From: an uncultured Eubacterium sp.
GTDB lineage: Bacteria > Bacillota > Clostridia > Lachnospirales > Lachnospiraceae
Assembly (NCBI GenBank): GCA_934317205.1
Contig: CAKREL010000027.1
Coordinates: 1-23,686, forward strand
Length of the DNA stretch: 23,686 nucleotides
Reading direction: 5' to 3'
Made by a program: the position numbers and the translations under genes. Below are positions 3,948 through 18,888 of the stretch, piece by piece. Within the stretch, counting starts at the first letter, position 1. Each line of letters starts with the position of its first letter. Below the pieces are notes generated by a model that worked only from the letters and a program-made list of their open reading frames with translations, had not been told where the DNA came from and did not search any database.

Positions 3948-4056
3948 TGTTACAGTTTACTCATTATGTAAAGCGAACATTCGCAATCCACTTTCGCTAC
4001 TTGCTCATGAACGCACGTGAGACTTGACATATGATTCTGATGAATGAGCTGTAACA
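3948..4056. repeat. Inverted-repeat element between divergent genes
   Basis: Outer arms TGTTACAG + CTCATT (3948-3955, 3960-3965, four bulged bases between) pair with AATGAG + CTGTAACA (4043-4056). Inside are GTAAAGCGAACATTCGC (3968-3984), whose relatives lie at 9577 and 21646, and GAACGCACGTGAGACT (4009-4024), whose exact inverted copy lies at 21471-21486. The rest of the 300-base gap 3881-4180 is AT-rich sequence and the presumed promoters. It may be a MITE-like element or a folded transcript. Confidence 0.6.
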
Positions 4057-4086
4057 CACTTTTTTCCTATTGTAACAGATTTTTCC

Positions 4087-12090: not shown

Positions 12091-13206
12091 TTAGTATTTA
12101 TCTCCATGTCTTACTTCCAATTTTCCCTTCTCTCTCGCATATTCCATAAGCTGCCGATTTGCTTCATTCAATGGGCCAAATTCCTCTGATTCCAGTGTAC
12201 ATATACATGATTCACACTGATCGATCCATTTTTTTGCATCTGCAATCTGGGATTCTTCGAGTGGATAAAATGCTTTCTGGGAAATCACTTCGCTTGCCAG
12301 TGCCCGAGCCGTCTGATATTCCCTGTCATTTTCCTGCAAAATACCTGCCACAAAAGGAATACTCTGTCGCTGCAGACGATTATATACTGCAATGCCGCTT
12401 CCTCCTCCGCCTATGACAAACACCTGTGGAATACCTCTGAAGGGATTTAAAAACACCTCGCCGGTGACCGGATCAAAACTGGTATCCGATACTCCATATA
12501 ATTCCTGCACATACGTACCGTCAAAAATTTCCTCCGGTGTACCAATGCGGTCGATGTGATCTCCTTTTACACAGGCAATCGTATCTGATACTTTCTGTGC
12601 CAGATCCAGTTCATGTAATGACATAATAATTGCTAAATTCCGATCTCTGGCCAGCATACGGATATTTGCAAGAATATCCAATTTAAATCCCATATCCAGG
12701 TATGACGTTGGCTCGTCAAGCAGCAAAATATCCGTATCCTGACAAATCGCCCTGGCCAACATCAAACGCTGACGCTGTCCATCACTCATTTTTCTAAAAT
12801 CCTGATTCTGCACATCTTGTGCATGTACCAGCGCAATGGCCTCATCGACTTTCGCCCAGTCGTCATCTGATAAAATACCAAATTTTCCGGTATATGGATA
12901 ACGTCCCGATGCTACCACATCCCGTCCACTGAGGAGTTCTGTCTGCAGCCGTTCCGTCATCACCATGGACAGGCTTTTGGAAATTTCACTGTCACGCATA
13001 GTATGCATGGATTCTTTTCCCAGATATACCGTTCCGCCAAGAATTTTCAGCTGCTTTGTTATTGTTTTTAAAATTGTGGATTTTCCGGCTCCATTCGGGC
13101 CGATCAATGTCAGCACTTCCCCGGATTTCACACACAGATTTACATTTTTTATCAACGGATTTTTATCATATCCGACCACTAAATTTTCTGTTCTCAGTTC
13201 CATCAT
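12091..13206 (-). CDS. FecE/BtuD-type ABC ATPase with extra C-terminal domain
   Basis: This 371-residue protein is the energy-giving subunit of the importer encoded just upstream. The ATPase part (1-255) has Walker A GPNGAGKST (36-44), signature MSDGQRQR (140-147), Walker B ILLLDEP (160-166) and H-loop His 198. Metal-chelate and cobalamin ATPases normally end near 255-270. Here about 110 residues follow (259-371), beginning VFVIGGGGSG and looking like a small Rossmann-type domain with a Gly-rich loop. I do not know its function. The ATG overlaps the permease stop codon (ATGATG around 13201-13206), and AGGGGAA is in front, so translation is coupled. It is the last gene of the operon. Confidence 0.9.
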   Translation of the reverse strand: MMELRTENLVVGYDKNPLIKNVNLCVKSGEVLTLIGPNGAGKSTILKTITKQLKILGGTVYLGKESMHTMRDSEISKSLSMVMTERLQTELLSGRDVVASGRYPYTGKFGILSDDDWAKVDEAIALVHAQDVQNQDFRKMSDGQRQRLMLARAICQDTDILLLDEPTSYLDMGFKLDILANIRMLARDRNLAIIMSLHELDLAQKVSDTIACVKGDHIDRIGTPEEIFDGTYVQELYGVSDTSFDPVTGEVFLNPFRGIPQVFVIGGGGSGIAVYNRLQRQSIPFVAGILQENDREYQTARALASEVISQKAFYPLEESQIADAKKWIDQCESCICTLESEEFGPLNEANRQLMEYAREKGKLEVRHGDKY

Positions 13207-14243
13207 CTGTTCCCCTGCTTTCTCAGCATCGCCGCAATGACTACCGGTACCAAAAATACTGCTGTCACAGAGCTTATGCTGATTTCTGTCGGTGCAAATA
13301 GTGTTCTTGCAATTCCATCACAAAACAATGTGATTACAGCACCAAACAAAAAACATCCCGGAATCAAAATGATCGGTTTTGCTGTTTTGGTCATTAATTT
13401 TACCAGATGAGGGACAGCAATTCCAACAAATGAAATCGGACCAGCAAACGCTGTAACGCAAGCTGACAGCATACTTGAGAGCAGAATCAAACCAATTCGC
13501 AGCGCTTTCACATTTACTCCCATATTTCTCGCATAAGTTTCCCCAAGCTGATATGCACCGATTGGTTTTGCAAGCAGAAAAGTAATGACCACACCAACCG
13601 CAACTAATACGACCATCAGTCGCACGTTTTCCCATGTCATACCAGAAAAACTTCCCAGTGACCAGTTATGTAGATTCACAATATTGGAATCGTCCGCAAA
13701 TGTCACACAGAAATCTGTAATTGCAGAACAAATATAGCCAATCATGATACCGCACACTACCAGAAGCGACATCTTAGAAACCCGAAAAGAAATCAGCAGG
13801 ACAAATCCCATAGCAATCAGGGAACCTGCAAATGCAGCAATGACCATTCCTGCGGAATTCAATGTCAGGCCTCTCTGCAGACATATGATCATAGTCAATG
13901 CAACCACCAACTTTGCACCGGAAGAAATTCCCAGTACATACGGGCCTGCGATCGGATTCTGAAAAAAGCTCTGAAGCAAAAATCCGGATACAGATAATGC
14001 CCCACCAAGCAGAATAGCCGCCACAATACGCGGTAACCTGATTTTCCACACAATCTGATATAATGTGGAATCACTGCCATCTTTTCCAAACAGTGTAAAA
14101 AAATCTCCCAGAGACATATTGACACTTCCCACACCTACATTCCACAGAAAAAGTGCGATCAGTGCACAGATAAATATTAAAAATGTTATTATATACCGTT
14201 TTTTCACTTCCCTAACTTCCTTTACCTTCTCTTTTTCACACAT
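13203..14243 (-). CDS. FecCD/BtuC-family ABC permease
   Basis: This 346-residue membrane subunit forms the channel for iron-chelate, haem or cobalamin import. It shows the family stretches LPRIVAAILLGGALSVSG, FQNPIAGPYVLGISSGA and GPISFVGIAVPHLVK, and about ten hydrophobic segments. The first ATG (14243) has only CCAGGA two bases ahead. A GTG start at 14207 (VKKRYII), with AAGGAAG eight bases before it, is a serious alternative. The gene follows the binding-protein gene by 53 bases. The substrate is not readable from the permease itself; the cobalamin riboswitch upstream points to corrinoid, cobalt or a related tetrapyrrole. Confidence 0.92.
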   Translation of the reverse strand: MCEKEKVKEVREVKKRYIITFLIFICALIALFLWNVGVGSVNMSLGDFFTLFGKDGSDSTLYQIVWKIRLPRIVAAILLGGALSVSGFLLQSFFQNPIAGPYVLGISSGAKLVVALTMIICLQRGLTLNSAGMVIAAFAGSLIAMGFVLLISFRVSKMSLLVVCGIMIGYICSAITDFCVTFADDSNIVNLHNWSLGSFSGMTWENVRLMVVLVAVGVVITFLLAKPIGAYQLGETYARNMGVNVKALRIGLILLSSMLSACVTAFAGPISFVGIAVPHLVKLMTKTAKPIILIPGCFLFGAVITLFCDGIARTLFAPTEISISSVTAVFLVPVVIAAMLRKQGNR

Positions 14244-14296
14244 TCCTGGAAATAACTACTCCATTATTCAGAAAGTGCCATATTCTATTTTTGTTA

Positions 14297-15811
14297 TTAT
14301 TGCAGCTTTCTGATAAAACGATAATCGGTGTCGCTGCTGTCTGTCAGAATCTTGTTCAAATCTTCGATAAAATCGCAGGTTGCGCTTGTTTCCTGATAAA
14401 AATTACTGCCGGTTGTATAAACATTTCCTGACTGTACAGCTTTAAAGTCTGCAAACAGACTATTCTTTGCTATCAACTCGTCAATAGAATTTAATTCACC
14501 TTCAATCGTACCGTTATAGATCAAAATATCTGCATCTTTCTCTGCCACATAGAAATCTTCCATCTGCATTTTCAATGTAGACAACGCATTTTCTTCTTCC
14601 TCAATATAGCCATTCAGAGAGTACACTCCACCAGCCAGATCGATCATAGAGGACACATAATCATTCGGTTTTCGAACCGTGATCGTTCCATCGGAAGATA
14701 CTGCAAAAAAGGCAACCGTACGACCAGTATTTTCTTTTTCCAGAATCGGCTGCACACGCTCTACCTGCGCACGGAAAAATTCGGTTCCCTTCTGTTCCTG
14801 ATTGAACAACACGCCAAACAGTCGAATCCATTCCAGACGTCCAAGCGGATGTTTTTCATAGCTGGAACGCTCGATCAAAACCGGGATTCCGAGTTCTTCA
14901 AGTTTTTCTTTAACTTCCGGATTATGCAGGATCATACTATTTTCAATGGCAAATTTACAGCCATCTCCAAGCAAAAGTTCATAATCCGGTGCATTATATT
15001 TTCCTGCATAAACTAAATCTCCCGCTTTCATAGCATCTGCTGCTTCCTGTACATACCAGTCTTTTTCCTTCAATCCGGTAAACTTAATATCCGAAAGAGC
15101 CCCGCTCTTGCATACAAGATCCATAACTGCACTGGATACAAGGTATCCGTCTGTCAGCGGTTGCTGCAAAACCACAACATCTGCTGGTATATCTGCTGGG
15201 ACAGACATCCCTTTCGGTACAAGCAAATAACGACCGCTGTCAACGATCGTTATCATTTTGTAAGCTCCATATTGTTCCACACTAAACTGATCCGCATATG
15301 CAAGATTCATACGTCCTTCGCATTTCAGATCATTAAAACTTACCGTTTCCGGGAAGGAAAAGGTAAGTGTATATTCAATTTCATGAGGTGTGCTCATGGC
15401 AGTGGTATCTCCAATCACATCCATTTCACACGGAACTCCATCGATTGGGAATGTAAAGGTTGAATTTCCACCTTCGTTTTCATTTAAATATTTTTCCCCA
15501 TCGACGAGCATATAATCATAATACGTACTGCTCCATACAATTGTCGCCATAGCCTGACCATCAGTTACATTCACCGTTGCAGTGGATTCCACTGTCGCTC
15601 TTCCGCTGCCGCCGCTTAATTCCACATTGACAGAATAGGTGCCATCTTCCAGCATCGGTGTCCCTGCATCTGCAGTCTGATCTTCTGCATCTGCACTGAC
15701 ACTCAGATCAGAAGAACTTGCCGGTGTATTATTTTCCTTTGTCCCGCATCCGGCCAGTGCGGTAACACTTACCATGACAGCCAAAATGACTGCCGCAATT
15801 TTCTTCTTCAT
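14297..15811 (-). CDS. ABC substrate-binding lipoprotein with N-terminal beta domain
   Basis: This 504-residue lipoprotein has lipobox LAGC (Cys 22) and should be anchored outside the membrane. Two parts follow a Ser/Asp-rich linker. A beta-rich domain (about 52-165, starting LEDGTYSVNVEL) resembles the iron-transport-associated/NEAT-like class by eye. A FecB/BtuF-type binding domain (about 185-490) contains ERSSYEKHPLGRLEWIRLFG near 313-332. FecB-like proteins are usually near 300 residues, so the N-terminal domain is an addition. Start: AAAGGA, 11 bases before the ATG. It lies 15 bases after the small lipoprotein gene and before the permease gene. The probable ligand is a corrinoid or other metal-tetrapyrrole, by inference from the riboswitch and the chelatase neighbour. 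Confidence 0.85.
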   Translation of the reverse strand: MKKKIAAVILAVMVSVTALAGCGTKENNTPASSSDLSVSADAEDQTADAGTPMLEDGTYSVNVELSGGSGRATVESTATVNVTDGQAMATIVWSSTYYDYMLVDGEKYLNENEGGNSTFTFPIDGVPCEMDVIGDTTAMSTPHEIEYTLTFSFPETVSFNDLKCEGRMNLAYADQFSVEQYGAYKMITIVDSGRYLLVPKGMSVPADIPADVVVLQQPLTDGYLVSSAVMDLVCKSGALSDIKFTGLKEKDWYVQEAADAMKAGDLVYAGKYNAPDYELLLGDGCKFAIENSMILHNPEVKEKLEELGIPVLIERSSYEKHPLGRLEWIRLFGVLFNQEQKGTEFFRAQVERVQPILEKENTGRTVAFFAVSSDGTITVRKPNDYVSSMIDLAGGVYSLNGYIEEEENALSTLKMQMEDFYVAEKDADILIYNGTIEGELNSIDELIAKNSLFADFKAVQSGNVYTTGSNFYQETSATCDFIEDLNKILTDSSDTDYRFIRKLQ

Positions 15812-15826
15812 CCGTTGAAAAATCCT

Positions 15827-16396
15827 TTACTCTACTTTCTGTGGGTCTGATACACTGACTTTATGATCATACCAGGTTCCTTTTTTTCCTATGATTGCAA
15901 GGTCAAATTCCTGATCCAGTGCTTCTACCGGTACATCAAATCCATATACTTCTTCAGTGGTGCCATCGCTGTAAGTGACAGTATCTGTGGTCGGCTCTAA
16001 AAGTTCTGCACCGTCTTTCTGTGCATCCTCTGCAGTTCCAACAAACAGATTTACTATATTCTTTGATGCAAGACTGATATGCATGGTCATCTTTCCATTT
16101 TCTACTGTCAAAGTGCCACGTCCGTCATTTGCCTCATTGACATGGAACATACTGCTGTCTGTGTCAAATTTTGCATCATAAATTCCATCTTCCAGTGCCG
16201 GTGTCTGCGCATCAGTGGAAGTCTGATCTGTCGTATCTGTCTTATCATTCGTTGTCTCGTCTGGTGCACTTGTATCCGTCTGATCTACAGATTCCTTTGT
16301 GCTGTCTGCCGCCGGCTGCGCATTATTTCCGCATCCGCCAAGCATGCCTACTGCCAGCGCAAATACTGCCGCTAACATTGCAATTCTTTTTTTCAT
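15827..16396 (-). CDS. Small lipoprotein with one beta-rich ligand-binding-like domain
   Basis: This 189-residue lipoprotein has lipobox LGGC (Cys 22), a long Thr/Asp/Ser-rich spacer (about 27-65) and one domain (about 68-186). The domain opens PALEDGIYDAKF and ends WYDHKVSVSDP. Its layout parallels the N-terminal domain of the downstream binding protein (EDG-x-Y opening, a TVENGKM-like turn, late His). This suggests a shared NEAT-like or iron-transport-associated fold and a role handing ligand to the binding protein. AGGAGG lies 9 bases before the ATG. Function is inferred only from context and fold resemblance; no similarity search was possible. Confidence 0.8.
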   Translation of the reverse strand: MKKRIAMLAAVFALAVGMLGGCGNNAQPAADSTKESVDQTDTSAPDETTNDKTDTTDQTSTDAQTPALEDGIYDAKFDTDSSMFHVNEANDGRGTLTVENGKMTMHISLASKNIVNLFVGTAEDAQKDGAELLEPTTDTVTYSDGTTEEVYGFDVPVEALDQEFDLAIIGKKGTWYDHKVSVSDPQKVE

Positions 16397-16456
16397 GTAT
16401 TCATCCTCCTGTCACATCATTTTACGTCCGCTTTAACATATCTTTTCCATATGCAA

Positions 16457-16493
16457 CTCACAGCAGGAACGAAAGAATCATTCCTGCTGTGAG
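16457..16493. repeat. Perfect 13-bp hairpin inside the operon
   Basis: CTCACAGCAGGAA (16457-16469) pairs with TTCCTGCTGTGAG (16481-16493) around an 11-base loop. It sits in the 138-base gap between the chelatase and small lipoprotein genes. No T tract follows on the minus strand, so it more likely stabilises the 3' end of the first gene's message or marks a processing site than acts as a full terminator. GTCCGCTTTA at 16426-16435 is a partial inverted copy of the dispersed motif. Confidence 0.55.
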
Positions 16494-16534
16494 ATTGGAT
16501 GTCATTTTTTACTTTTTACTGCACTATGTATCTC

Positions 16535-17761
16535 TTATTTACCTAAAGAATCAATAGCTGCTTTTGTATGATCCACATAAATCTGCTGAACAGCTTCAAT
16601 CTCACCTAAACCAGCAATCTGTGTATCAATCTTATCAAAGTTTCCGCTTGCTGTAAACATGCTCTTCCAGGAATCGTCATCATCGCCTGCCATATCATTG
16701 TTTGCATGATCACCTGCAACAACCATTAACGGTCTTAATACAACGTTTTTGTATCCTGCTTCTTTTACTGCTTCGATAACTGCTTCACAAGCTGTCTCTT
16801 CCGGCTCACCTTCAACAGTTCCGATAAATACATTCTCATATCCAAGTGCTGCCATCTGGGAAGCCATCTGGCTGTAGCTTACTTTTGCTGTATGAGAAGT
16901 ACCATGTCCCATAAATACGAAAGCTGTGCTGTCTGCTTTTGCAGCATCCAGAGAGTCATATCCAGCTGTCTTTACTGCTTCTGCTGTAATATCCTCAGCT
17001 ACTTTTGCTTTGTCTTCATTTACAGCAGTTGCATCTGCTCCTACTTCGCCAAGTAACGGCTCAGCAACAGTTACAGATTCAAATTTATCTTTGTAGTTAT
17101 CAAGTGCTGCTACCAGTTCATCATACTCAGCACCATGCATTAAGTGTGTCGGCTGAACAACCAGGTTCTTTACGCCATTATCAACAGCTCTCTGAAGAGC
17201 CTGATCTACGTTATCAATCTTCTCACCATCTCTTGCCTGTACGTGGTTGATGATGATCTGTGCAGTAAATGCACGTCTTACGGACCAGTCTGGATTTGCA
17301 GCCTGGATTGCTTTCTCAACGCCACCAATATCAGCTACACGACTGTCATTGAAAGATGTACCAAAACTTACAACAAGGATCTCATTCTCGCCGATCTCGT
17401 CCTGATTCAGCGGATCATCCTTGGAAGCATCACCTGTATCTCTGCCGAAATAATCCGGATCAGCATTTTCACCTTCTACTAATTCTTTCTGAGCATCTGT
17501 CAGTTTATCCCATGCTGCTTTTGCAGCTGCACACTGTTCGTCTGTCTTGTCTGTTCTCTCCTGAACATAAATTGCATCGATCAGATCAGCCACCTCATCA
17601 GCTTTTGCCTGATCCTCATTTTCCTCAGCTGCTGCGCTTCCATCCTCTGATGCACTTACTGCAGCATCCTTTCCTGCATTTGCATTGTTGTTTCCACAAC
17701 CTGCAACTAAGCCAACTGCCATGGTAAATACTGCCATTAAGGCAACCATTCTTTTTTTCAT
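16535..17761 (-). CDS. CbiK-like cobaltochelatase, exported lipoprotein
   Basis: This 408-residue lipoprotein has lipobox VAGC (Cys 22). An acidic linker follows, then a short helical segment (about 53-97; AAWDKLTDAQKELV is like FIVAR-type surface repeats). The CbiK/anaerobic cobaltochelatase domain runs from about 125 to 405. Seen motifs are LVVSFGTSF, PTHLMHGAEYDEL (His 206, 209), FMGHGTSH (His 286), GTVEGEP and PLMVVAGDHANNDMAGD (His 352). The His residues correspond to the metal-binding positions of this family. Cytoplasmic CbiK inserts Co into sirohydrochlorin, but the lipobox places this one outside. It could bind cobalt or act on external tetrapyrroles. AAGGAGAAGG precedes the ATG. It is the first gene behind the cobalamin riboswitch. 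Confidence 0.9.
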   Translation of the reverse strand: MKKRMVALMAVFTMAVGLVAGCGNNNANAGKDAAVSASEDGSAAAEENEDQAKADEVADLIDAIYVQERTDKTDEQCAAAKAAWDKLTDAQKELVEGENADPDYFGRDTGDASKDDPLNQDEIGENEILVVSFGTSFNDSRVADIGGVEKAIQAANPDWSVRRAFTAQIIINHVQARDGEKIDNVDQALQRAVDNGVKNLVVQPTHLMHGAEYDELVAALDNYKDKFESVTVAEPLLGEVGADATAVNEDKAKVAEDITAEAVKTAGYDSLDAAKADSTAFVFMGHGTSHTAKVSYSQMASQMAALGYENVFIGTVEGEPEETACEAVIEAVKEAGYKNVVLRPLMVVAGDHANNDMAGDDDDSWKSMFTASGNFDKIDTQIAGLGEIEAVQQIYVDHTKAAIDSLGK

Positions 17762-17859
17762 GTGTCCTTCTCCTTTTAATTATTTATAGATTTTTTACTT
17801 CACAGGGTACAGTCGTTCCGGAAGAATGACATTATCGCAGCTGACATATACATGACTGC

Positions 17860-17897
17860 AAAACAAAAATGCTCCACTCGGATCATCCAAGTGAAGC
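17860..17897 (-). terminator. Expression-platform terminator of the cobalamin riboswitch
   Basis: On the minus strand GCTTCACTTGG (17887-17897) pairs with CCGAGTGGAGC (17871-17881), with two G-U pairs and a five-base loop, and is followed by ATTTTTGTTTT. It lies between the aptamer and the chelatase gene, the expected place for B12-dependent premature termination. Confidence 0.82.
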
Positions 17898-17977
17898 AAT
17901 TCTATCTTCTAAATAATCAATCATTTTGTTCAACAAACAGCACAATCAATAACTCGTGATTCTGGAATATATCCGGT

Positions 17978-18128
17978 ACCAGACAACTGGCAGGTTTCCT
18001 GGCTGAAAGATCAACATACAGATTCGGCCTTCCCAATGCTATATGCAGCAGTGACCAATTTCTGAATCTGCACTCCCTTATCACAGTGACGAGTCTCGTA
18101 CAGGAATTACACCTGTTTCCCTTTTAAC
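17978..18128 (-). promoter_or_regulatory. Cobalamin (B12) riboswitch
   Basis: Reading the minus strand, the conserved blocks appear in order: AAAAGGGAAACAGGTG (18125-18110), AATTCCTG and CACTGTGA in the middle, then the B12 box GCCAGGAAACCTGCC (18003-17989). Spacing fits the AdoCbl-type class. Exact P1 ends are uncertain. With the terminator at 17860-17897 it should lower transcription of the five downstream genes when cobalamin is plentiful. Confidence 0.93.
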
Positions 18129-18262
18129 CATACTTTTGCTTCTTACAGTTTTCGGACAGATCAAAAACATTTCCCCGATCGTTTTGAACTGCTGTTGACT
18201 ATCTTTGCCGTAATACCTGCAAGTGCATGGCACCAACTATCTTTCTCTATGAACTTGAGGTT

Positions 18263-18291
18263 ATCATATCATATCAGATGCTATAATTCAA
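18263..18291 (-). promoter_or_regulatory. Promoter of the riboswitch-controlled operon
   Basis: On the minus strand TTGAAT (18286-18291) and TATGAT (18263-18268) are 17 bases apart. The transcript would start near 18256, about 125 bases before the aptamer core. The remaining leader (18130-18256) and the stretch 18292-18389 hold nothing else I can identify. Confidence 0.65.
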
Positions 18292-18389: not shown

Positions 18390-18755
18390 TTATCTTATAA
18401 AAGTAGATAGTTTTTTTCCACACAGAACTCCCATTATGCAGCCACAACAGCTTAATAATACATACAATCCTCCCGTTACATATTGATGTTCCTCAAACAG
18501 ACAATATGCCTCCAGGGAAAATGTTGAAAAAGTGGTAAACCCACCACATACTCCGGTTTTCCAGAATAATATCGTATTTTCCGATACTTGATTCCTTCCA
18601 CTTGTAATACCGACAATAAATCCTATCAGAATCGCTCCTATCATATTCGTCATCAATGTCAGCAGTGGAAATCCACTCTTAACAGGAACAAGACTTATAG
18701 CATATCTGCCCATTGCTCCTACAGCTCCGCCAAGAGCTACAAACAAAAATCCCAT
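18390..18755 (-). CDS. crcB: Fluoride channel FluC/CrcB
   Basis: This small membrane protein of 121 residues exports fluoride ions as a dual-topology dimer. The family marks GGAVGAMGRYAIS near the N-terminus, NMIGAILIGF and GVCGGFTTFSTFS (the fluoride-path Phe/Thr/Ser region) are present, with four hydrophobic segments. I start it at ATG 18755 (MGFLF), because GAGGA is 9 bases ahead. The in-frame TTG at 18764 is only one base from that site and is unlikely. It lies 133 bases after the OmpA-domain lipoprotein gene. No fluoride riboswitch is visible in that gap. A single copy is seen, so it is probably the homodimeric type. Confidence 0.9.
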   Translation of the reverse strand: MGFLFVALGGAVGAMGRYAISLVPVKSGFPLLTLMTNMIGAILIGFIVGITSGRNQVSENTILFWKTGVCGGFTTFSTFSLEAYCLFEEHQYVTGGLYVLLSCCGCIMGVLCGKKLSTFIR

Positions 18756-18888
18756 ATGTTTCAAATCCTCTTTTTTATTTCAATCATATTCCTTTCATAG
18801 TACATACTCACTATTTTTTTATCTTCTGACAACGTTCCTATTCTTATCCCATCGCTTAGTGTTCTACGCACTTGAAGTGGTGGAATGC

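Follow-up and report, generated by a model that had tools for sequence, protein, structure and literature searches.

The nearest described exported relative of the cobalt chelatase CbiK is IhtB/FetB of Porphyromonas gingivalis (PMC10913741, PMC13402209), reported as a CbiK-type lipoprotein that acts outside the cell in company with a binding protein, a permease, and an ATPase (PMC10913741). P. gingivalis is said to be without the steps leading to precorrin-2 by Shelton et al., who in 2018 defined tetrapyrrole precursor salvagers, salvage of 5-aminolevulinic acid being the one type tested by growth (PMC6461909). In the available portion of that study, no importer of a precursor at the ring stage is named, and a review puts the precorrin-2 salvager class at 0.6% (PMC8123684). 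Here, we describe a five-gene operon, encoding an exported CbiK-type chelatase and an ATP-binding cassette (ABC) importer behind a cobalamin (B12) riboswitch, in a 23,686-nucleotide stretch of DNA from an uncultured Eubacterium sp. (contig CAKREL010000027.1, positions 1 to 23,686; the whole stretch is called the window). We lean toward reading this operon as an uptake system, repressed by B12, whose substrate is a B12 ring precursor at the level of sirohydrochlorin (factor II) or precorrin-2.

Results

The operon lies on the minus strand of the window, and its elements are, in the order of transcription:

17972..18164, minus strand: cobalamin riboswitch aptamer RF00174 (78.5 bits against a gathering threshold of 31.5, E = 4.3e-18)
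17870..17898, minus strand: intrinsic terminator of the riboswitch (13-pair stem, then a T-run)
16535..17761, minus strand: CbiK-type chelatase, a lipoprotein of 408 amino acids, predicted exported (PF06180, E = 5.9e-73; lipobox in the sequence)
16445..16505, minus strand: stable intergenic hairpin without a T-run, in the gap between the chelatase and NEAT genes (z = -6.7)
15827..16396, minus strand: lipoprotein of 189 amino acids with a predicted NEAT fold (fold comparison)
14297..15811, minus strand: binding lipoprotein of 504 amino acids with a NEAT-like N-domain and a solute-binding domain (Peripla_BP_2, 9.3e-25; NEAT, 0.075, weak)
13203..14243, minus strand: FecCD/BtuC-type permease (PF01032, 1.4e-78)
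12091..13206, minus strand: ABC ATPase with a C-terminal extension, 371 residues (ABC_tran, 3.5e-30)

The riboswitch match covers the full length of the model (positions 1-189), and 0 of 200 shuffled sequences formed a hairpin as stable as the terminator (-22.9 kcal/mol, z = -7.9). An earlier interpretation of the window, made from its letters without database searches (the sequence-only reading), had placed five genes behind one promoter, a B12 riboswitch, and a terminator. The genes lie at the coordinates it gave, and both RNA elements were found upstream of them; the promoter that it named was no better than chance, with 14 promoter-like sites found against a mean of 17.0 in shuffled sequence.

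The arrangement is conserved far beyond chance. A contig scan yielded at least 596 pattern matches, at least 591 of them confirmed, and because the best-scoring 80 loci were kept, the set of relatives used throughout is similarity-chosen. A covariance model trained on 13 riboswitches (one from the window, five from the 80 loci, and seven from other loci) placed a riboswitch upstream of the chelatase in 77/80 loci, ending 48 to 433 nucleotides before the chelatase match (median, 202); the three loci without one were L015, L056 (at a contig edge), and L073. This model took the place of a motif scan that proved too blunt, finding two of three motifs in 36/80 loci and in 21/375 control windows. 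Rfam, also run directly on 20 genomes, recovered RF00174 in 13 of 15 loci of one set and in 3 of 4 of another, the fourth being a far cluster end. In 60/80 loci, all three importer genes (binding protein, permease, and ATPase) lie downstream of the chelatase. Two of the hosts (those of L025 and L039) are labeled as spirochete bins.

The family match and lipobox of the window protein bear out the proposal of an exported CbiK-type chelatase. Active-site residues of Salmonella CbiK, among which we take Glu175 to be the third, were mapped onto the chelatase by alignment, and the motifs around His145, His207, and Glu175 are kept in 79, 79, and 80 of the 80 relatives. His145 and His207 are the catalytic histidines of the Salmonella enzyme (PMC7689651). 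Only three distinct PDB sequences were matched by the chelatase at an E value of 0.001 (1qgo, 9b86, and 2xvx); 9b86 is FetB, and the parallel with IhtB/FetB that had been suggested thus holds for the parts of the system. The window protein scored 193.3 bits against the sirohydrochlorin cobaltochelatase equivalog model NF047852, under its cut-off of 400. A strict lipobox pattern, which overlooks atypical lipoboxes and plain signal peptides, was found in the chelatases of 70/80 relatives; by eye, the other 10 N termini fall into lipoboxes of weaker form, ordinary signal peptides, and starts that were set wrongly. In 26/80 relatives, a NEAT motif occurs in the same chain as the chelatase. On a quick CbiK tree of 34 exported and 44 cytosolic rows, which is rough and has several long branches, one starred group of 42 held all 34 exported sequences and 8 cytosolic ones; since the tree calls for at least three changes, a single origin of export is not supported.

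Many of these operons run on into B12 synthesis. Downstream genes were assigned by similarity to seeds named through Pfam and NCBIfam. By this measure, the fetched flank of 38/80 loci contains same-strand B12-synthesis genes downstream, ring genes in 16 and late genes in 21 (overlapping counts). In Faecalibacterium longum, a single riboswitch is followed by about 21 kb of same-strand genes that encode, in order, exported CbiK, the NEAT protein, the binding protein, the permease, an ATPase::CbiD fusion, CbiL, CbiF, CbiG, CbiJ, CbiET, CbiA, CobT, CobU, CobS, a phosphatase-like frame (by eye), CbiB, CbiP, and CbiC. A methylase match in an overlapping frame is probably CbiH. Searches of the F. longum genome returned no match to HemB or HemC, and none to SUMT that passed the cut-off. 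The joining of the operon to corrin-synthesis genes lies outside the window and was not seen by the sequence-only reading. Two other gene arrangements were seen in passing. At G015:C7:64916-66376, CbiK and CbiL matches adjoin, both in 561-residue open frames, and probably belong to one fused protein; at 638-2365 of locus L127 (genome G126), CbiK is the C-terminal end of a longer frame that, by eye, resembles porphobilinogen deaminase at its start.

SUMT makes precorrin-2, and HemB, HemC, and SUMT together mark the precursor pathway in host genomes. Among 46 of the 80 host genomes, chosen for isolates and operon types, exported CbiK was present in 46, CbiC in 45, HemB in 16 (one partial), HemC in 19 (one fragment), and, over cut-off, SUMT in 19 and CbiL in 28; all CbiX matches listed for this set fall, by eye, within CbiK genes. 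HemB, HemC, and SUMT were jointly absent from 25 of the 46 genomes, and 24 of these carry CbiC, the gene pattern of a precorrin-2 salvager. Seven of the 24 are strain-named and not bins: Kineothrix MSJ-39, Pseudoflavonifractor MSJ-37, F. longum, Lachnospiraceae AC2031 (which also has a second, weaker CbiK), Hominifimenecus microfluidus, Gemmiger formicilis, and Butyrivibrio AE2015. A host that keeps the enzymes acting after CbiK and has lost HemB, HemC, and SUMT would have to enter the pathway no earlier than precorrin-2 or sirohydrochlorin.

A second, unselected set comprised 130 genomes sampled evenly across the family-level group to which Eubacterium ramulus belongs. CbiK was called exported or cytosolic with the N termini read in the 48 genomes left unassigned by CbiK length, which alone misfiled nine exported proteins; among the length-assigned exported CbiKs outside the 80 loci, 27/29 carry an export signal, one is cut at a contig start, and that of genome G057 was not found by motif. 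Exported CbiK occurs in 39/72 genomes with CbiC versus 2/58 without it (Fisher's exact test, 6e-11, relatedness ignored). The share of the 72 CbiC-positive genomes that is without SUMT was 17/25 where CbiK is exported only, 0/14 where both forms occur, 1/28 where it is cytosolic only, and 4/5 where neither was found, such that SUMT is absent in 17/25 exported-only genomes against 1/42 with a cytosolic CbiK (Fisher's exact test, 5e-9, relatedness ignored). Viewed from the other side, exported CbiK is found in 17/22 SUMT-negative versus 22/50 SUMT-positive genomes (P = 0.011). The chelatase of the sole cytosolic-only genome without SUMT, G107, groups beside the exported clade. Four genomes (G085, G097, G139, and G171) have CbiC with no CbiK, SUMT, or HemB found; these may be incomplete genomes or have another entry route.

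The importer itself has the components of a BtuCDF-type system by family models, namely a FecCD/BtuC permease, a Peripla_BP_2 protein, and an ATPase. The permease scored 201.9 bits against the NCBI BtuC model, under its cut-off of 334, and the ATPase scored 205.4 bits against the corrinoid ABC ATPase model NF007082, under its cut-off of 537, with residues 2-337 aligning to positions 2-345 of the 402 in the model. The domain said to be added to this ATPase does exist as an extension, which matches the C-terminal part of NF007082. In relatives, CbiP, CbiD, or CbiET may occupy the place of this extension: the ATPases of the 60 full cassettes comprise 11 CbiP fusions, 2 CbiD fusions, 1 CbiET fusion, 25 with a short extension, 18 plain, and 3 cut, and the fused domains were confirmed by family models at L008, L014, L075, and L034. 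Since these enzymes are fused to the ATPase, hand-over of the imported ring at the membrane is suggested.

B12-riboswitch control, together with BtuC and corrinoid ATPase models as the nearest to the permease and ATPase, could also fit a Gram-positive-type importer of cobamides or cobinamide; its CbiK-like and NEAT components would then be mere surface binders comparable to BtuG/BtuH of Bacteroides. Many loci moreover continue with late genes only (CbiP, CobT, CobU, CobS, and CbiB), which would be useful for late-corrinoid salvage too. We nevertheless regard corrinoid capture as unlikely, given that catalytic motifs are retained in 79 to 80 of the 80 relatives, that the predicted NEAT fold is one known for flat porphyrins, that exported CbiK is linked to corrin-ring synthesis (the 39/72 versus 2/58 above) and to SUMT loss, and that ATPases are fused to CbiD and CbiET, enzymes of ring intermediates.

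Tetrapyrrole-type binding folds are supported. What had been called a small beta-rich lipoprotein is indeed a lipoprotein, and structural comparison of its model refines it to a predicted NEAT beta-sandwich; fold comparison alone showed this, as its profile retrieved no NEAT entry among PDB sequences. Scores against PF05031 (NEAT) were 16.2 bits for the small lipoprotein and 13.9 bits for the binding protein, both under the gathering threshold of 32.8. For the latter, described earlier as a two-domain protein, the solute-binding domain is clear, and its profile matched Lmo2184 (6.5e-9), which we take to be HupD; against the IsdE model it scored 26.8, far under the cut-off of 298.65. Because solute-binding domains were the only structural matches listed for its model, the NEAT nature of its first domain rests on weak sequence similarity. 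A further protein of this type was seen at L019 (13883-19047), where a second B12 riboswitch precedes a 1,595-residue protein in which several NEAT-like repeats, representing the two types of motif, can be made out by eye. A Pfam scan of this protein found no family; it is possibly a surface tetrapyrrole sponge.

The predicted NEAT fold, the IsdE/HupD-like binding protein, and the sequence kinship of the chelatase to FetB would also fit heme or iron piracy as proposed for IhtB/FetB, whereby a surface chelatase would remove iron from heme or swap its metal and the ring or metal would be imported. The switch, however, is a B12 and not an iron switch in 77/80 loci, operons and fusions tie the system to B12-synthesis enzymes, and disruption of cbiK in Bacteroides fragilis was reportedly without effect on the use of heme iron (PMC6460266, as unpublished data there). 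We thus consider this explanation quite improbable. Both it and corrinoid capture explain fewer facts than does uptake of sirohydrochlorin.

The hairpin between the chelatase and NEAT genes has a near-identical counterpart in E. ramulus (L001, 11235-11378, z = -6.0), the closest named relative of the window (84% identity over 5.8 kb to ATCC 29099), and may act as an mRNA stabilizer that could raise chelatase mRNA over that of the remaining genes. Elsewhere in the window, a CrcB fluoride channel gene lies upstream of the operon (18390-18764, minus strand), and a Clostridiales-1 RNA match at 3948-4077 (minus strand) scored below threshold (29.9 bits; cut-off, 48).

Discussion

In hosts without the precursor genes, a sole chelatase placed outside the membrane, beside tetrapyrrole-type folds and an importer and behind a B12 riboswitch, makes the loading and import of sirohydrochlorin the simplest reading of this operon. 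In the proposed model, lipid-anchored CbiK would insert cobalt into scavenged sirohydrochlorin outside the membrane, and the NEAT-fold domains would hold the flat tetrapyrrole and hand it on to the solute-binding protein. The cobalt-loaded ring would then be brought inside by the permease and ATPase, to be processed there by CbiL and the later corrin enzymes. The sequence-only reading had envisaged a surface step in which metal is either loaded into or removed from a tetrapyrrole or a corrinoid before import. That idea is supported and can be narrowed: because gene neighbors, fusions, and genome-wide gene loss all point to a ring precursor, cobalt loading would be the step and a ready-made corrinoid would not be the substrate.

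Several observations weigh against this model. We met no measurement of sirohydrochlorin in gut contents in the literature. In ten loci, exported CbiK is followed by at least 3.9 kb of sequence in which none of the three importer genes occurs (L020, L036, L046, L053, L055, L056, L060, L061, L065, and L073, all except L056 and L073 with a riboswitch); the remaining ten incomplete loci either break off at the end of a contig or flank or retain only part of the importer genes. CbiL over cut-off is missing from 18 of the 46 chosen genomes, which counts against the model because entry at sirohydrochlorin needs CbiL. In one of these, G017, CbiL is subthreshold (133 bits), and 17 have at best weak cross-matches (G009, G012, G022, G023, G026, G028-G035, and G039-G042), 16 of them with CbiC; G029, G033, and G034 have no clear CbiL, yet have HemC and SUMT. 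Where a clear CbiL is absent, the C20 methylase may have diverged, or the ring may enter the pathway further on.

The link to precursor loss has exceptions as well. SUMT is kept in 8/25 exported-only genomes, the 22 SUMT-negative genomes include 4 without a detected CbiK and 1 with a cytosolic form only, and HemB loss was not significantly linked to exported CbiK (24/38 versus 15/34, P = 0.16). Relatedness was allowed for on a CbiC tree, where SUMT status changes at least 12 times and only 7 independent pairs lie on well-supported branches. On average, 2.5 pairs then linked exported-only CbiK to SUMT loss and 0.2 ran counter to that link (sign test, median P = 0.5); for a lack of cytosolic CbiK the figures were 3.7 and 0.2 (median P = 0.25), and the mere presence of exported CbiK was directionless (1.6 versus 1.3; median P = 1). 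With relatedness taken into account, the association of exported-only CbiK with SUMT loss hence keeps its direction but falls short of significance. In addition, because the hem, SUMT, and cytosolic cbiK genes can adjoin, a draft gap or a single deletion could take them together.

E. ramulus itself has HemB, HemC, and SUMT together with a second, cytosolic CbiK, and since it keeps the full precursor pathway, the operon probably serves the lineage of the window as an accessory route. Complete-pathway hosts of this kind would also suit cobalt scavenging, in which the cell would release its own sirohydrochlorin as a carrier, have it loaded by surface CbiK, and take it back, cobalt supply being the main purpose. 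Such a cycle is unworkable without SUMT, which 17/25 exported-only genomes do not have, and we judge it very improbable.

A wider and more tentative picture, which we hold with slightly less than even confidence, is that some gut and rumen microbes carry out cobalt insertion, the first committed step of their B12 synthesis, outside the cell on sirohydrochlorin from other microbes and relay the product through dedicated NEAT and ABC proteins to ring enzymes tethered to the ATPase. Gut butyrate producers with incomplete B12 pathways have been described, and the authors could not exclude traces of precursor in the medium (PMC7360928). CbiK is listed among the signature genes of B12 synthesis in a study whose available text leaves export unmentioned (PMC6593275), and among the most abundant protein functions in human feces, sirohydrochlorin cobaltochelatase is reported at 0.1-1.0%, its form being unstated in the portion available (PMC4829149). 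Among the listed open-access titles and abstract openings, we found no description of a B12-riboswitch importer with exported CbiK or of sirohydrochlorin uptake.

The operon suggests that a B12-switched system widespread in gut bacteria allows B12 to be built from scavenged ring precursors that are loaded with cobalt before uptake. Should this be true, a textbook cytosolic step would shift to the cell surface, sirohydrochlorin would join the compounds cross-fed in the gut B12 economy, and genome-based calls of B12 makers would change, since a protein annotated as CbiK could be located outside the cell. With at least 591 confirmed matches, the operon is a concrete and widespread candidate that makes the question of ring-precursor uptake testable.

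In sum, the system resembles several described ones and differs from each. It shares with the Iht system a CbiK-like lipoprotein and an ABC importer in one operon (60/80 relatives here) and a chelatase akin to FetB (9b86); Iht, however, is described as a heme/iron uptake system with a TonB-dependent receptor (IhtA), which is not among the five genes of the window operon, whereas the exported-CbiK operon has NEAT proteins, a B12 riboswitch, and fusions to B12 enzymes. Salmonella CbiK (1qgo) is of the same family and has the same catalytic motifs, but the window chelatase is predicted to be exported and lipid anchored, with about 100 additional residues before the domain. The BtuCDF-type importer CD2999-7 of Clostridioides difficile likewise combines a riboswitch with an ABC importer (PMC11477304), to which the exported-CbiK operon adds a surface chelatase, NEAT domains, and an extended or fused ATPase. 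Isd/Hup heme relays share the NEAT fold and an IsdE/HupD-like binding protein, and the exported-CbiK operon is distinguished from them by its B12 riboswitch and chelatase. Finally, many hosts of the operon (24 of the 46 chosen genomes, though not E. ramulus) resemble precorrin-2 salvagers in having corrin-ring genes without precursor genes, which makes the exported-CbiK operon a candidate importer for that class, composed of known parts in a new arrangement.

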